Shown: positions 3,097 through 9,253 of the stretch, piece after piece
Layout: each line of letters opens with the position of its first letter
How positions within the stretch are numbered: position 1 is the first letter of the stretch
Source: Symploca sp. SIO1C2
GTDB taxonomy: Bacteria > Cyanobacteriota > Cyanobacteriia > Cyanobacteriales > Coleofasciculaceae
Length of the DNA stretch: 64,000 nt
Direction of reading: 5' to 3'
NCBI GenBank assembly: GCA_010672925.1
Contig: JAAHFP010000020.1
Span: forward strand, 50,186 to 114,185
The notes under the pieces: generated by a model
Told to the model about the DNA's origin: nothing
What the model saw: the letters and a program-made list of their open reading frames with translations, nothing else
Database searches by the model: none
Translations under genes and position numbers: made by a program

Positions 3097-4173
3097 ATGA
3101 GTATGGGTCAAGTAGATCAACAAATTCGTATCCTCCACCTCTCCGATATCCACTTAGGAACTGTAGATCAAGCCAAGCGCTACTTTACTCAACTGGCTAC
3201 TGACCTGAAGCAAAACCTGAAAGTTAAACAACTCAACTACTTGGTCATTTCTGGAGATATTGCCAACTACTCTACTGAGGATGAATACAAAGCGGCTTTT
3301 GAGCTAGTAAATAGCATAGTGAAACACTACGGATTAGATCCTAGTCGGGTGGTAATAATTCCTGGCAACCATGACCTCAACTGGGATTTAGCAGCAGATG
3401 CTTATACTTATGTCCCTCACCACCGACTGCCTAATCCTTTAACTGAAGAGTATATCTCTCTTGGTGATTCTAGAGTTTTAAAATGCGACTCAGAAAAATA
3501 TCAGCAACGCTTCCAATATTTTAGTGAATGCTTCTATCAAAAAATCTACAATGAACCTTATCCTCTTAAATACGAAGACCAAGCCATTCTCTACCCCTGT
3601 CCCCAAGATAAAATTCTTTTCCTTGGTCTCAATTCTTGTTGGGAAATCGACAATGAACATACTGAACGCGCCAGTATTAACTCTAATGCTGTTGCCAAGG
3701 CCATTGAGGAAATTGTATTCGGGAACTATGATGACTGGCTAAAAATTGCTGTGTGGCATCATCCAGTTACAACTGCTGAGTCCATGAAAAATGTTGAATT
3801 TTTGGAACAGCTAGCCGTTAGTGGTTTCCAAATTGCGGTGCATGGTCATATCCACGAAGCTAAGAATGAAGTTTTTCGCTACGACACAGGACGAGGACTT
3901 CACATCATTACTGCTGGAACTTTTGGTGCAATTGCTAATCATCAAGTTCCAGGTATTCCTCTGCAATACAACTTGCTGGTACTTAATCCAGAAACAGGTA
4001 TATTAACAGTAGAAACACGCAAGAAAGAAAGAACTGATGGTGCTTGGTCAGCAGATGCACGGTGGGGTGATAAAAATAACCCTTCCCCCAGATATGAAAT
4101 TCCCTTAAAGTACAGTTTTCCCAAGGTTACTCAAGAATTACAAGCAGATTCTACTAATTTAAAAAAAAACTAA
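3097..4173 (+). CDS. Metallophosphoesterase (calcineurin-like / class III phosphodiesterase type)
   Basis: ILHLSDIHLG, GDIAN, GNHDLNW, WHHPV, HGHIHEA motifs; ends in an A9 tract. Confidence 0.9.
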   Translation: MSMGQVDQQIRILHLSDIHLGTVDQAKRYFTQLATDLKQNLKVKQLNYLVISGDIANYSTEDEYKAAFELVNSIVKHYGLDPSRVVIIPGNHDLNWDLAADAYTYVPHHRLPNPLTEEYISLGDSRVLKCDSEKYQQRFQYFSECFYQKIYNEPYPLKYEDQAILYPCPQDKILFLGLNSCWEIDNEHTERASINSNAVAKAIEEIVFGNYDDWLKIAVWHHPVTTAESMKNVEFLEQLAVSGFQIAVHGHIHEAKNEVFRYDTGRGLHIITAGTFGAIANHQVPGIPLQYNLLVLNPETGILTVETRKKERTDGAWSADARWGDKNNPSPRYEIPLKYSFPKVTQELQADSTNLKKN

Positions 4174-4223
4174 ACAAACCAAATTTACCTTTAGGCTTAA
4201 CGCATATTCTTCATCTCTCTGAC

Positions 4224-7200
4224 TTGCACATCACCAATTTAAAGCAAGCTGAGCATTGGCATAGTCTACTATACGAGGATCTATACTACCCACTTAAGAT
4301 CAATAAGCTAGACAGTCTAATTATATCCGGCGACATTGCCAATAAATCCACTCTAGAAGAATACAAAGTTGCCAAACAGTTTATCGACAATCTCTGCCAA
4401 GATTTTTCCCTAGAACCAAAACAAATTATCATTGTTCCTGGTAACCACGACCTCAACTGGGAGCAAACAAAGAAGGCATTCCATCCCAAAAATAACAAGG
4501 AAAAACCCAAAATTTACATCGAAAAAGATAAATACAAACAGCGCTTTGTACACTTCAGCGAGTTTTATAAAGACATTAAAGGTCAATCCTATCCCTTAGA
4601 TGACGACAAACAATATACTCTCGACCACTTGCCAAAGCAACACCTTCTGATTTTGGGACTAAACTCTGCTTGGCAGCTCGATCATTATGATAAATACTGC
4701 GCCAGCATCAATATGGATGCCCTAAACAAAGCTCTGACAGAAATTAAGTACAATAAAGACTACCAAAACTGCATAAAAATCGCTGTTTGGCATCATCCTG
4801 TCAACAGTGAGTGTGAGGGAAAAATTTCCGACTCTGCTTTCCTTCATCGACTTGTTAATTATGGATTCCGTTTCTTCCTCAATGGGCATATGCACATCCG
4901 CGAAGCAGAAACCTCTAACTACCGCTACGAAAAGATTTACCAAGAGGAAAAAATTTACGGAATTTGTGCCGGAACCTTCGGTGTACATACTTCAGAACTA
5001 TCAAAAGCTACTCCTTGGCAATACAACCTGCTGGAATTTAATACAGATACACTGACTGTCCATCCCCGTTGGCGTCAACAAGAAAACAGCCCTTGGGAAT
5101 CCGGAGACAACTATACGATAAACATAAAATCTAACCAAAAAACTATAGATCAGGATAAATTAACAAGAATTATTGACAATTTAAAGCAAGATATGGGAAC
5201 AATATCTAATGATTATTATAAGATATACAATGAAGGTTTTAAGGAAATTATTTACAATGCTTTAGAAGGTATTACAACAATAATTAAAGACTTTATCGTT
5301 GCTGACAGGGCAACTATTTATTTTTTGAATGAAAGTGAAAGGCTTTCTTCGATAGTTGACAAAAAAGGCGAATATTTAGAGATTGCAGTTCTAATTGGTC
5401 AAGGGTTTGCGGGTAAGGTTGCCAAAAGCAAAAAAATTCATATAAGTGCTATGGAGGAGTGTCGTAATTCTGATGAAACTGTAAAACAGTCGAAAAGAAC
5501 AGGGTATACTACTTACACTCTTTTGACTTATCCTTTATTGGATGAGCAGGAAAATTTAGTAGCTGTTATTCAGTTAATCAATAAATTAAAAAAGTCTAAT
5601 AATCAAAAATCTTCTCTAGAAGAAAGAATTGATCAAAGTGGTTTTAAAGAAGAAGATAAAGAAGATTTAGATAAATTAGCAGACCAAATTAGACCAATAT
5701 TAGGGGAATTTAAAAGCTCTTATAAAATGGCTCATGAAATGCAAGGATTTATCGATTATACAAAGGCAATACACAAGCTAAGTAAAGCAAGTACAAAATG
5801 TAATGATTTAGAAGAGATTTGTAAAATGGTGACCAAGGTCGCCGAAGACTTTATGCAAGCTGACCGTACTACTTTATGGTTAGCTGATCGTCAACGCAAA
5901 GAATTACAGGCAACTATTATCTCAAAAGATGGTTCACCAGAAGAAAAGATCATAAAATTTGGAGACGGATATGTTGGAGAAGCCGCAGCAGAAAAAAAGA
6001 TCAAAATCATCCCTTTTGATCTTTACGAACATCAAGATTCACAGATGTCTAAGAAAACGGATAAAGAGACTGGCTATCGTACCTGTAGTCTGATGTCTAT
6101 GCCAATTTTCCATGTTGATCAATTAGTTGGTGTACTGCAACTAGTCAATAAAAGAAAACCAGGAGTGGATATCGAATATGATGACGAAAAATTAATTAAA
6201 AATCCTCTAGATTGCTTTCAAAATAGCTTTACAGATGAAGACAAGAAGCTGATAAAGCAACTGAATTATTTCATAGCAACTGCTATTTCAGAAGTCAACC
6301 AATCTATAACAGATAAAGCAGATAATATCCTCTATGAATTTTTAAGTAAAATTACTGAGCTAGCTAAGGATGAACTATGCTCCCATCGTGTAACTATTTT
6401 TCTCTTAGATCAAGAAGCAAAAGAATTTTGGTCTATTATTAAAGAAAACATAGAAATTAGAGTCCCTATTAATAAAGGAATTGTAGGGGAAGCTGGACGG
6501 AAAAAGCCAGGAGAATTTGTTAAAGCACGTAATGTAGACAAGGATAATAATCCACGCTTTAATGAAGCAAAAAAACAGGATAAAAAGAACGATTATACTA
6601 CTTATAATTTATTGGCTATCCCTCTATTTAATGAAAAAGAAGAATTAGTAGCTGTTGTTGAATTTGTAAATAAATTAAAAAATATTCAATCAAGAATAAA
6701 GCAAGATATTGCCCCTAAAGATAAAGTTGATAAAGATAAAGTTGATATGGAAGGATTTACGGATACTGATCCCAAAAAGTTTTCCGAAATATCCTACATC
6801 ATGCTAAAATTTTTAGAAGGTTTCAAAGCTCTTTATGAAACAACTCGCAGAAAGCAAGGAGAATTGAGGCTTAAAAACGCAATAACTACACTTTCTGAAA
6901 TTAATATTGATGCAGAACGTTCACAAATATTTGAAAAAGTTCAGGAAGAGGCAAAGAAGCTTGTGAATGCGGATAGAAGTACCTTATGGCATCTAGACCG
7001 CAAAAGTAATAAATTATGGGCTCACTTTGATGAGGATGGGGAGTCTCAACGAAAGGAAGTTCCGGTAGGTACAGGCTATGTTGGTAAAGTAGCAGAGCAT
7101 TGCAAGTCCCTCAATATCTCTTTTGAGCGGTATGGTGAGCCCAATTATGCAATTTCTCTGGAAAGTGATGATGAGAATAGTTATCTTATCTATAGTTTAA

Positions 7201-7448
7201 TATGTATGCCGATCCTAAATTCTGATAAAGAATTACTGGCAGTGATTCAACTAGATAATAAAAAGAAACCAGGTAACTTCTCAGATGATAACCATGAAGA
7301 TTACGATTCTACTCAAGTACCAGAATTATTTCAGGCTAACTTTACCAAAGAGGATGAAAAATTACTTAATGAATTCAATATTGCTGCTGCTAGTTATCTC
7401 TCTCAAATTGAATTGTTTGAAGAAATGCACAAAATAGCAAGTAGTTAA
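4224..7448 (+). CDS. Metallophosphoesterase fused to four GAF domains (frame open from 4158; no ATG before the metal-binding motif)
   Basis: Upstream in-frame ILHLSDLHI, then GDIANKST, GNHDLNW, WHHPV, NGHMHIREA; four GAF-like blocks (e.g. DRATIYFL...GQGFAGKVA...LLTYPLLDEQENLVAVIQLINK). Confidence 0.88.
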   Translation: MHITNLKQAEHWHSLLYEDLYYPLKINKLDSLIISGDIANKSTLEEYKVAKQFIDNLCQDFSLEPKQIIIVPGNHDLNWEQTKKAFHPKNNKEKPKIYIEKDKYKQRFVHFSEFYKDIKGQSYPLDDDKQYTLDHLPKQHLLILGLNSAWQLDHYDKYCASINMDALNKALTEIKYNKDYQNCIKIAVWHHPVNSECEGKISDSAFLHRLVNYGFRFFLNGHMHIREAETSNYRYEKIYQEEKIYGICAGTFGVHTSELSKATPWQYNLLEFNTDTLTVHPRWRQQENSPWESGDNYTINIKSNQKTIDQDKLTRIIDNLKQDMGTISNDYYKIYNEGFKEIIYNALEGITTIIKDFIVADRATIYFLNESERLSSIVDKKGEYLEIAVLIGQGFAGKVAKSKKIHISAMEECRNSDETVKQSKRTGYTTYTLLTYPLLDEQENLVAVIQLINKLKKSNNQKSSLEERIDQSGFKEEDKEDLDKLADQIRPILGEFKSSYKMAHEMQGFIDYTKAIHKLSKASTKCNDLEEICKMVTKVAEDFMQADRTTLWLADRQRKELQATIISKDGSPEEKIIKFGDGYVGEAAAEKKIKIIPFDLYEHQDSQMSKKTDKETGYRTCSLMSMPIFHVDQLVGVLQLVNKRKPGVDIEYDDEKLIKNPLDCFQNSFTDEDKKLIKQLNYFIATAISEVNQSITDKADNILYEFLSKITELAKDELCSHRVTIFLLDQEAKEFWSIIKENIEIRVPINKGIVGEAGRKKPGEFVKARNVDKDNNPRFNEAKKQDKKNDYTTYNLLAIPLFNEKEELVAVVEFVNKLKNIQSRIKQDIAPKDKVDKDKVDMEGFTDTDPKKFSEISYIMLKFLEGFKALYETTRRKQGELRLKNAITTLSEINIDAERSQIFEKVQEEAKKLVNADRSTLWHLDRKSNKLWAHFDEDGESQRKEVPVGTGYVGKVAEHCKSLNISFERYGEPNYAISLESDDENSYLIYSLICMPILNSDKELLAVIQLDNKKKPGNFSDDNHEDYDSTQVPELFQANFTKEDEKLLNEFNIAAASYLSQIELFEEMHKIASS

Positions 7449-7524: not shown

Positions 7525-7700
7525 TCTCACCTCCAGAACTTGCTCAGCAGTAAGCTTCAGCTCAGGAAAAGTCCGAGAAACAATCCGCTGATTACCAGAA
7601 AACTCAGTTGCCTGATACTTACCATTAACCAACAGCAGTACAGTCACTGACTCTGCTTGAGGGCCAACAATCCAGTATTCCAGTGGATTCAACAAACAAT
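7525..7700 (-). pseudogene. C-terminal fragment of a Uma2-family (DUF820) protein
   Basis: Reverse strand reads NPLEYWIVGPQAESVTVLLLVNGKYQATEFSGNQRIVSRTFPELKLTAEQVLEVR*, a Uma2 C-terminal signature with no N-terminal part. Confidence 0.65.
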
Positions 7701-7781
7701 TCTTGAGCCCAGTTTGGGTGAACCTTTATCCATGAGAGCCAGCATTGGAAGGGTTACTCATGGCTTACCGGGGTTGCACCG

Positions 7782-7976
7782 TTACTTTGTTTGTTGATTC
7801 TGAGGTTTTGGTTTATGGAACTTACCCTCTTCCTTAGCTTGTCTAATGGCAACTTCAATTAAGAAAGCTGCAAGATTAGCAGTCGGTCTACCCTCCGATT
7901 CTGCCCACCATTCCAAATCCTCAAAAATTGAGTCTGGCAAAGTAACGTAAACCCGTTTACTCACAATTGTTGACAC
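7782..7976 (-). CDS. Ribbon-helix-helix (CopG-type) protein, probable antitoxin/regulator
   Basis: 64 aa; KRVYVTLPDSIFEDLEWWAESEGRPTANLAAFLIEVAIRQA. Confidence 0.7.
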   Translation of the reverse strand: MSTIVSKRVYVTLPDSIFEDLEWWAESEGRPTANLAAFLIEVAIRQAKEEGKFHKPKPQNQQTK

Positions 7977-8055
7977 TCTTGATTATCTCCTCTATGTTAC
8001 ATTTTCGCTTCACCTAACCAGCTATTTTTTACTTAGAGCTGCTTTTCTGAGCTAA

Positions 8056-8298
8056 TTGTTGCTAATTAGCTGCATATTAGTTACTATAGTCAAAATAGAT
8101 TATCATAAGGAGATTCTCGCTATCCCCACATCAGAACAGAAAACTCAGTGCTATATCTTGTGTTGCTGGTTTACTAAACTTTACTTACCTATCAATATTG
8201 TTCGCCTAGATGAACGAACTGGCAATATCTTTTTGCTAGCAGGTGAGGAAAATATAATCGAAATCTATGCTAACGGTCGCTGGAGGTACATTGGATGA
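8056..8298 (+). CDS. DUF6888-like small protein (start uncertain)
   Basis: TKLYLPINIVRLDERTGNIFLLAGEENIIEIYANGRWRYIG; overlaps the next ORF by 4 nt. Confidence 0.6.
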   Translation: MLLISCILVTIVKIDYHKEILAIPTSEQKTQCYILCCWFTKLYLPINIVRLDERTGNIFLLAGEENIIEIYANGRWRYIG

Positions 8299-8574: not shown

Positions 8575-8904
8575 ATGACTACTCAACTCCAGATTGTAGA
8601 TCAAGAACGTCTTAAGGTATCCCGTTACCAAATTGTTAACTTTTGCGATCGCTGGAAGATTATTGAGTTTTCTCTGTTTGGTTCCGTGCTAAGAGAAGAT
8701 TTCCACCCCGACAGCGATATTGATATACTTTATCAATTTGCTCCTAATCACGGCTGGAGTTTATTCGATATTGTTCATATGAGAGAAGAGTTAGAACAAA
8801 TGTTCGGGCGAAAAGTTGATTTTGTTAGTAAGCAATCTCTACAGAATCCTTATCGCCGTTATGAAATTTTGAGAACACATCAAGTCATTTATCGCCATGA
8901 ATAA
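8575..8904 (+). CDS. mntA: MntA-type minimal nucleotidyltransferase (antitoxin)
   Basis: GSVLREDFHPDSDIDILYQF (GS-x-DxD) motif; overlaps the HEPN ORF. Confidence 0.85.
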   Translation: MTTQLQIVDQERLKVSRYQIVNFCDRWKIIEFSLFGSVLREDFHPDSDIDILYQFAPNHGWSLFDIVHMREELEQMFGRKVDFVSKQSLQNPYRRYEILRTHQVIYRHE

Positions 8905-9253
8905 CCGTGATGCTGGCTATCTTTGGGATATGGTTCAAGCAATTAAAAATATTCAAGAATTTCTGGGTAATGTATCATACAACGATTATCTGGACAGTAT
9001 TTTGCTCCAAAGTGCTGTAGAAAGACAGTTGGAAGTTCTCGGCGAAGCTGCACGTAGAATATCTGATGTTTTTCAACAAGCACATCCAGAAATTGACTGG
9101 CGTGGAACTATTGGCTTGAGAAATATTATTGCGCATCAGTATGACAAAGTTGAGCAAGAAACTCTTTGGGCAATAGTTCAATCAGAGCTTCCAGAGCTAT
9201 TGAAGCTAATAGAACCTTTATTGCCGCCTTTACCAGATAATGAATTGCAGTAG
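8897..9253 (+). CDS. hepT: HepT-like HEPN-domain toxin (ribonuclease)
   Basis: RNIIAHQY (RX4-6H motif); VERQLEVLGEAARRISD; 8-nt overlap with mntA. Confidence 0.85.
   Translation: MNNRDAGYLWDMVQAIKNIQEFLGNVSYNDYLDSILLQSAVERQLEVLGEAARRISDVFQQAHPEIDWRGTIGLRNIIAHQYDKVEQETLWAIVQSELPELLKLIEPLLPPLPDNELQ

Follow-up and report, generated by a model that had tools for sequence, protein, structure and literature searches.

Two metallophosphoesterase reading frames meet at a run of nine adenines

The 64-kb stretch of DNA from the marine cyanobacterium Symploca sp. SIO1C2 analyzed here (the window) carries two calcineurin-like phosphoesterase domains, MPE1 and MPE2, which lie in different reading frames that meet at a run of nine adenines (A9; Table 1). 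Both halves matched PF00149 in Pfam, MPE1 with an E-value of 2.4e-14 (54.7 bits) and MPE2 with an E-value of 3.3e-11 (44.4 bits); both scores exceed the gathering cut-off of 21.5 bits, and the catalytic motifs align. In frame 0, ORF1 ends with TTA AAA AAA AAC TAA, the stop codon being located at 4171-4173. This ending at the A9 run, as originally described, was confirmed base for base. The -1 frame contains no stop codon from 4158 until a TAA at 7446-7448 and leads, again as predicted, into the second metallophosphoesterase. According to frame computations, one additional A in the tract creates a single product of 1,450 amino acids, and loss of one A leads to an early stop (TGA 4220-4222). The lengths derived from the frames, 1,450 and 358 amino acids, agreed with the earlier proposal of a slipped product of about 1,450 amino acids alongside a 358-aa MPE protein. 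Four GAF domains had been proposed for the C-terminal region; three were matched by Pfam, and the remaining repeat was not.

Table 1. Features of the MPE1-MPE2-GAF locus of Symploca sp. SIO1C2 in window coordinates.
Feature	Position	Strand	Remarks
ORF1, MPE1, calcineurin-like phosphoesterase, 358 aa	3097-4173	+	motifs DIH, GD, GNHD, HH and GHIH complete
Open -1 frame with MPE2 (about 4206-5120) and GAF region	4158-7448	+	
A9 homopolymer at the MPE1/MPE2 junction, putative slippage or indel site	4161-4169	+	
Slippery heptamer A AAA AAC, frame-0 phase	4164-4170	+	X XXY YYZ form
Linker LNKPNLPLGLTH, -1 frame	4170-4205	+	gap-free alignment to LDQSNLPVSLSY of the paralogue C194 of the same genome
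MPE2 motif ILHLSDLH, comprising the beta-1 strand and the metal-binding Asp and His	4206-4229	+	no common start upstream in frame
Conventional TTG-start ORF2, 1,074 aa	4224-7448	+	lacks the metal-binding Asp
GAF domain 1	5262-5690	+	PF01590, E 1e-4
GAF domain 2	5805-6176	+	PF01590, E 1.5e-13
Repeat 3, classed as GAF-like from its position and co-linearity alone	6345-6875	+	no Pfam match
GAF domain 4	6918-7289	+	PF01590, E 1.5e-11

Elsewhere in the window, adjacent small ORFs at 8575-9253 resemble, by eye only, an MNT nucleotidyltransferase/HEPN pair. The intergenic regions at about 2200-2500 and 7680-8090 contain repeats that occur in many copies across the genus with up to 95-97% identity.

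The conserved start of MPE2 lies upstream of the first common start codon

In the -1 frame between 4158 and 4223, none of the codons ATG, GTG, TTG and CTG is present, as claimed before, and common start codons begin only with TTG 4224. The sole table-11 start in this interval is ATT 4206, which is the first codon of the ILHLSDLH motif, and a near-cognate ACG is found at 4200. An AlphaFold model of the -1-frame MPE2 (pLDDT 84) matched metallophosphoesterases in the PDB, Rv0805 and GpdQ among them; its first strand comprises residues 15-21, and TTG 4224 corresponds to residue 23. A protein started at TTG would, according to the model, lack the beta-1 strand and the metal-binding Asp; this accords with the original view that an intact MPE2 cannot arise from TTG 4224. 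The Asp of SDLH is invariant across 21 aligned relatives. Of the 62 MPE copies, all but three have an in-frame start ahead of the motif; the exceptions are the A9 gene, L167, which lies near a contig end, and L157, which is cut off by an in-frame TAA.

In comparison with the relative L166, six of the eight codons of ILHLSDLH differ and every difference is synonymous, which argues that the motif has been translated from further upstream for most of its history. For MPE2 versus its relatives, dN was about 0.27 and dS about 1.3, giving a ratio of about 0.2 (range among the relatives 0.1-0.3), and by its substitution pattern the -1 frame is genuine coding sequence under purifying selection. Pseudogene decay of MPE2, suggested by a long tree branch of 0.71, was rejected in view of the dN/dS ratio near 0.2.

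Besides its counterpart in C194, the linker resembles TKQTNLPVCLRY of Symploca sp. SIO2E6 C957, and in both C194 and C957 the corresponding stretch is translated behind other domains. The linker alignment with C957 seemed to contain a gap of one base, which raised the possibility of a frame break elsewhere than at A9, an assumption that is unneeded given the gap-free match to C194.

Homologues point to one modular gene

A single-protein scan of genome contigs returned no loci, and an alignment-based scan returned 68. The genomes most closely related to Symploca sp. SIO1C2 were those of Symploca sp. SIO2C1 and SIO2E6. Orthologues of MPE1 shared 66-71% identity (68% for the Nostoc sp. C057 plasmid, 67-71% for Calothrix, 67% for Nostoc LEGE 12450), and nearly all of them run on into CHAT, NACHT or NB-ARC/WD40 within the same ORF. 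The closest one, an MPE1-NACHT gene of Calothrix sp. CSU_2_0 (L123:6007-8397), has an in-frame TGA inside MPE1 that is immediately followed by GTG, and the same frame resumes thereafter. The closest homologue of the MPE2-GAF half, SIO2E6 C646, is a single ORF of 1,243 amino acids in which an alpha/beta-hydrolase-like domain precedes MPE and GAF; it is co-linear with the Symploca sp. SIO1C2 protein and 58% identical over 940 residues. Since the MPE1 orthologues mostly run on and the closest MPE2-GAF homologue is uninterrupted, ORF1 and ORF2 appear to be one modular gene, MPE1-linker-MPE2-GAF, with a homopolymer frame break. The proposed joining of the two ORFs, with the A-run as break point, was thus backed by the homologues and by the linker homology. 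Uninterrupted orthologues had been named as an observation that would speak against a frameshift; homologues of MPE1 and of MPE2-GAF were indeed uninterrupted, but none was the same MPE1-MPE2 fusion, and MPE1 joined to MPE2-GAF was not found in any genome searched. The MPE1-MPE2 joint turned up in no other strain or orthologue, so that an in-frame ancestor is something that we infer rather than see.

Two tandem arrangements (L170:5995-10022 and L177:5663-9504) consist of an MPE-CHAT gene followed by another MPE gene whose C-terminus differs and looks SIR2-like by eye. They were considered as instances of the same fusion and rejected, being separate genes, each with its own start. Such tandem genes and a standalone MPE gene (L127) are nevertheless compatible with a reading of the Symploca locus as two separate genes, the second being translated from the non-canonical ATT 4206 or ACG 4200, and ACG 4200, one change away from ATG, corresponds to an ATG in many homologues. 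The nearest linker relatives, however, have AGG or AGT there rather than ATG, starts at ATT and ACG are rare, and the linker homology to C194 runs upstream of both codons to the A-run, which makes two separate genes very unlikely.

The A9 run is of a kind avoided in genes

The A9 run is unique in the window when both strands are searched. We surveyed homopolymers in a 1.26 Mb sample of the genome with about 900 ORFs. Runs of at least nine A occurred six times in coding sequences, compared to 22.8 (range 18-29) expected from synonymous shuffles of 958 kb of coding sequence of Symploca sp. SIO1C2, which corresponds to a four-fold depletion; an under-representation of such slippage-prone runs has been reported for the genes of many bacteria (PMC1088944). 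Because runs of this length are depleted in genes and A9 is a known site of transcriptional slippage, some 1,450-aa product is likely to be made, provided that A9 is correct.

The previously described heptamer A AAA AAC is correctly phased, and a second in-phase slippery heptamer, A AAA AAA, is located at 4161-4167. In pseudoknot-free predictions, the RNA downstream of the run did not fold better than shuffled sequences (z +0.95 for 65 nt, z -0.15 for 120 nt). No Shine-Dalgarno-like stimulator was seen by eye within 4140-4160, and the locus gave no Rfam match to an RNA element. The exact junction 30-mer was absent from the viral contigs searched, and none of the homologues found shared the tract or the frame break. 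With no downstream fold signal and no orthologue having the same junction, the idea of a "programmed" -1 ribosomal frameshift was not sustained; a homopolymer indel, be it real or an artefact, or slippage of RNA polymerase would be simpler.

Comparison with known slippage systems

The Symploca gene resembles tssM1 of Citrobacter rodentium, where slippage on A11 reaches 20-25% (PMC4256274): the gene is interrupted, poly-A is located shortly before the premature stop, an extra A in the mRNA restores the frame, and the C-terminal domain is encoded in the shifted frame. It differs from tssM1 in having A9 instead of A11 and in being known from its sequence alone, whereas for tssM1 experiments demonstrated the slippage, the two products and the proportion between them, and Yersinia is a further case of slippage (PMC4256274). 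In Thermus thermophilus dnaX, nine A's within the coding region cause 50% slippage (PMC1088944) and two products are formed, as predicted for Symploca; the unslipped frame leads to the long product in dnaX, but to the short one in Symploca. Closest in terms of host are IS elements of the cyanobacterium Nostoc sp. PCC 7120, in which a length-variable poly-A of 8-10 A's, similar to the run in Symploca, allows an ORF fusion product (PMC1088944). These elements are present in several near-identical copies, whereas the Symploca gene is single and has no matching copy.

With a run of about nine A's, a frame restored by one extra base and a host that avoids such runs, the Symploca gene shares traits of transcriptional slippage genes; conservation of run and break, another such trait, was not seen in the homologues found. 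The A9 run might be selected for (programmed) slippage of RNA polymerase or ribosome and be kept to set the ratio of MPE1 to MPE1-MPE2-GAF. This would fit the position of A9 exactly at the joint, its avoidance elsewhere in genes, and the fact that among single-base slips +1 A alone restores the frame, and it has precedents in the efficiencies of 20-25% on A11 and 50% on A9 and in the IS elements of Nostoc (PMC4256274, PMC1088944). The purifying selection on MPE2, which has no common start ahead of its motif, points in the same direction, but is equally expected from a young break. As neither a conserved frameshift site in the relatives found nor a stimulatory structure was detected, we regard selected slippage as doubtful.

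Even less probable is phase variation, in which replication slippage would flip the tract within the population, A9 giving MPE1 alone and A10 the full protein. A hypermutable tract between the domains of a defence-like gene would suit such a mechanism, and homopolymeric tracts appear in PMC2831843 as a proposed general prokaryotic switch, but homologues do not share the tract.

Broken relatives and the most probable origin of the frame break

Broken members are frequent in this MPE family. In the paralogue of the same genome (C194:1897-3532; L100), a MITE-like insertion flanked by terminal inverted repeats interrupts the MPE, whose split was for this reason discarded as a second case of slippage. 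In Symploca sp. SIO2E6, an MPE gene (L157, about 258-540) has an in-frame TAA in the N-terminal domain; a related N-terminal domain on the same contig (4304-4843) is free of this TAA. Clear homopolymer-linked splits were limited, in the 1.26 Mb sample, to the A9 gene and a CHAT-CHASE2 gene (C112:177470-179984; L199:17470-19984) that is split at a G7 run and whose CHASE2 end appears to go on in the +1 frame. Of the A/T≥9 sites inspected in Symploca sp. SIO1C2, the A9 run is the only one at which a long open frame is split off from an ORF.

Taken as they are, the data are best explained, with a probability of roughly one half, by a recent one-base change in a hypermutable A-tract of an often-broken gene that now yields mainly MPE1 and, by leaky slippage, the 1,450-aa protein. 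In the given sequence, MPE1 and MPE2 are shifted against each other by one base at the A-tract, presumably due to an indel whose recency we infer. The 358-aa MPE1 would be the main product, and stuttering of RNA polymerase on A9 would lead to a minority of 1,450-aa MPE1-MPE2-GAF protein, to which some -1 ribosomal slippage would perhaps add. A plain recent indel is the simplest account because relatives are often broken (C194, L157, L123). Against a recent break stands that ORF2 keeps 1,074 codons open as well as its catalytic residues, which also fits a functional slippage gene.

Next after a plain recent indel ranks an assembly or sequencing error, i.e., a true tract of A10 and a single uninterrupted 1,450-aa ORF, which we nevertheless consider unlikely. 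The homologues are uninterrupted, a one-base homopolymer miscount is a common type of error, a large survey judged homology-confirmed singleton frameshifts to be mostly errors (PMC3711429), and the G7 run represents a second homopolymer-linked break in the sampled genome. On the other hand, such breaks are very few among the approximately 900 ORFs and other A/T≥9 runs within ORFs leave the genes unsplit; the assembly is therefore free of a general homopolymer problem.

A probable relation to anti-phage phosphoesterases

In NCBIfam and PADLOC, both MPE domains were nearest to anti-phage phosphoesterases, at the domain level only. The best NCBIfam matches were DS9_1 for MPE2 (95.1 of 420 bits) and DS8 for MPE1 (76.4 of 790 bits), both below the equivalog cut-off. 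Across the family, MPE modules are shuffled with CHAT, NACHT, NB-ARC/WD40, HEAT, alpha/beta-hydrolase and GAF partners. Calcineurin-like phosphoesterase effectors have been described in EAD/STAND conflict systems (PMC8195603), and in these as in DS9_1 and DS8 the MPE module is swapped among varied partners. The Symploca gene differs from them in scores far under the cut-offs and in its double-MPE plus GAF architecture, which was not found elsewhere. From its domains, the gene is probably a cyanobacterial conflict-type member of the anti-phage phosphoesterase family, and domain-level similarity makes a role in defence probable. That A9 is a maintained switch of a double-phosphoesterase GAF-sensor defence protein, setting the ratio of free MPE1 to full protein by slippage that is possibly modulated by conditions, is a speculative and rather improbable extension.

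If slippage is real and kept, a cyanobacterial and probably defence-related gene would reach its sensor region and second enzyme via poly-A slippage alone. If not, the locus would clearly exemplify how a homopolymer breaks a gene in a family that is rapidly shuffled and in which damage is common, and it would caution against annotating splits of this kind as pairs of genes.
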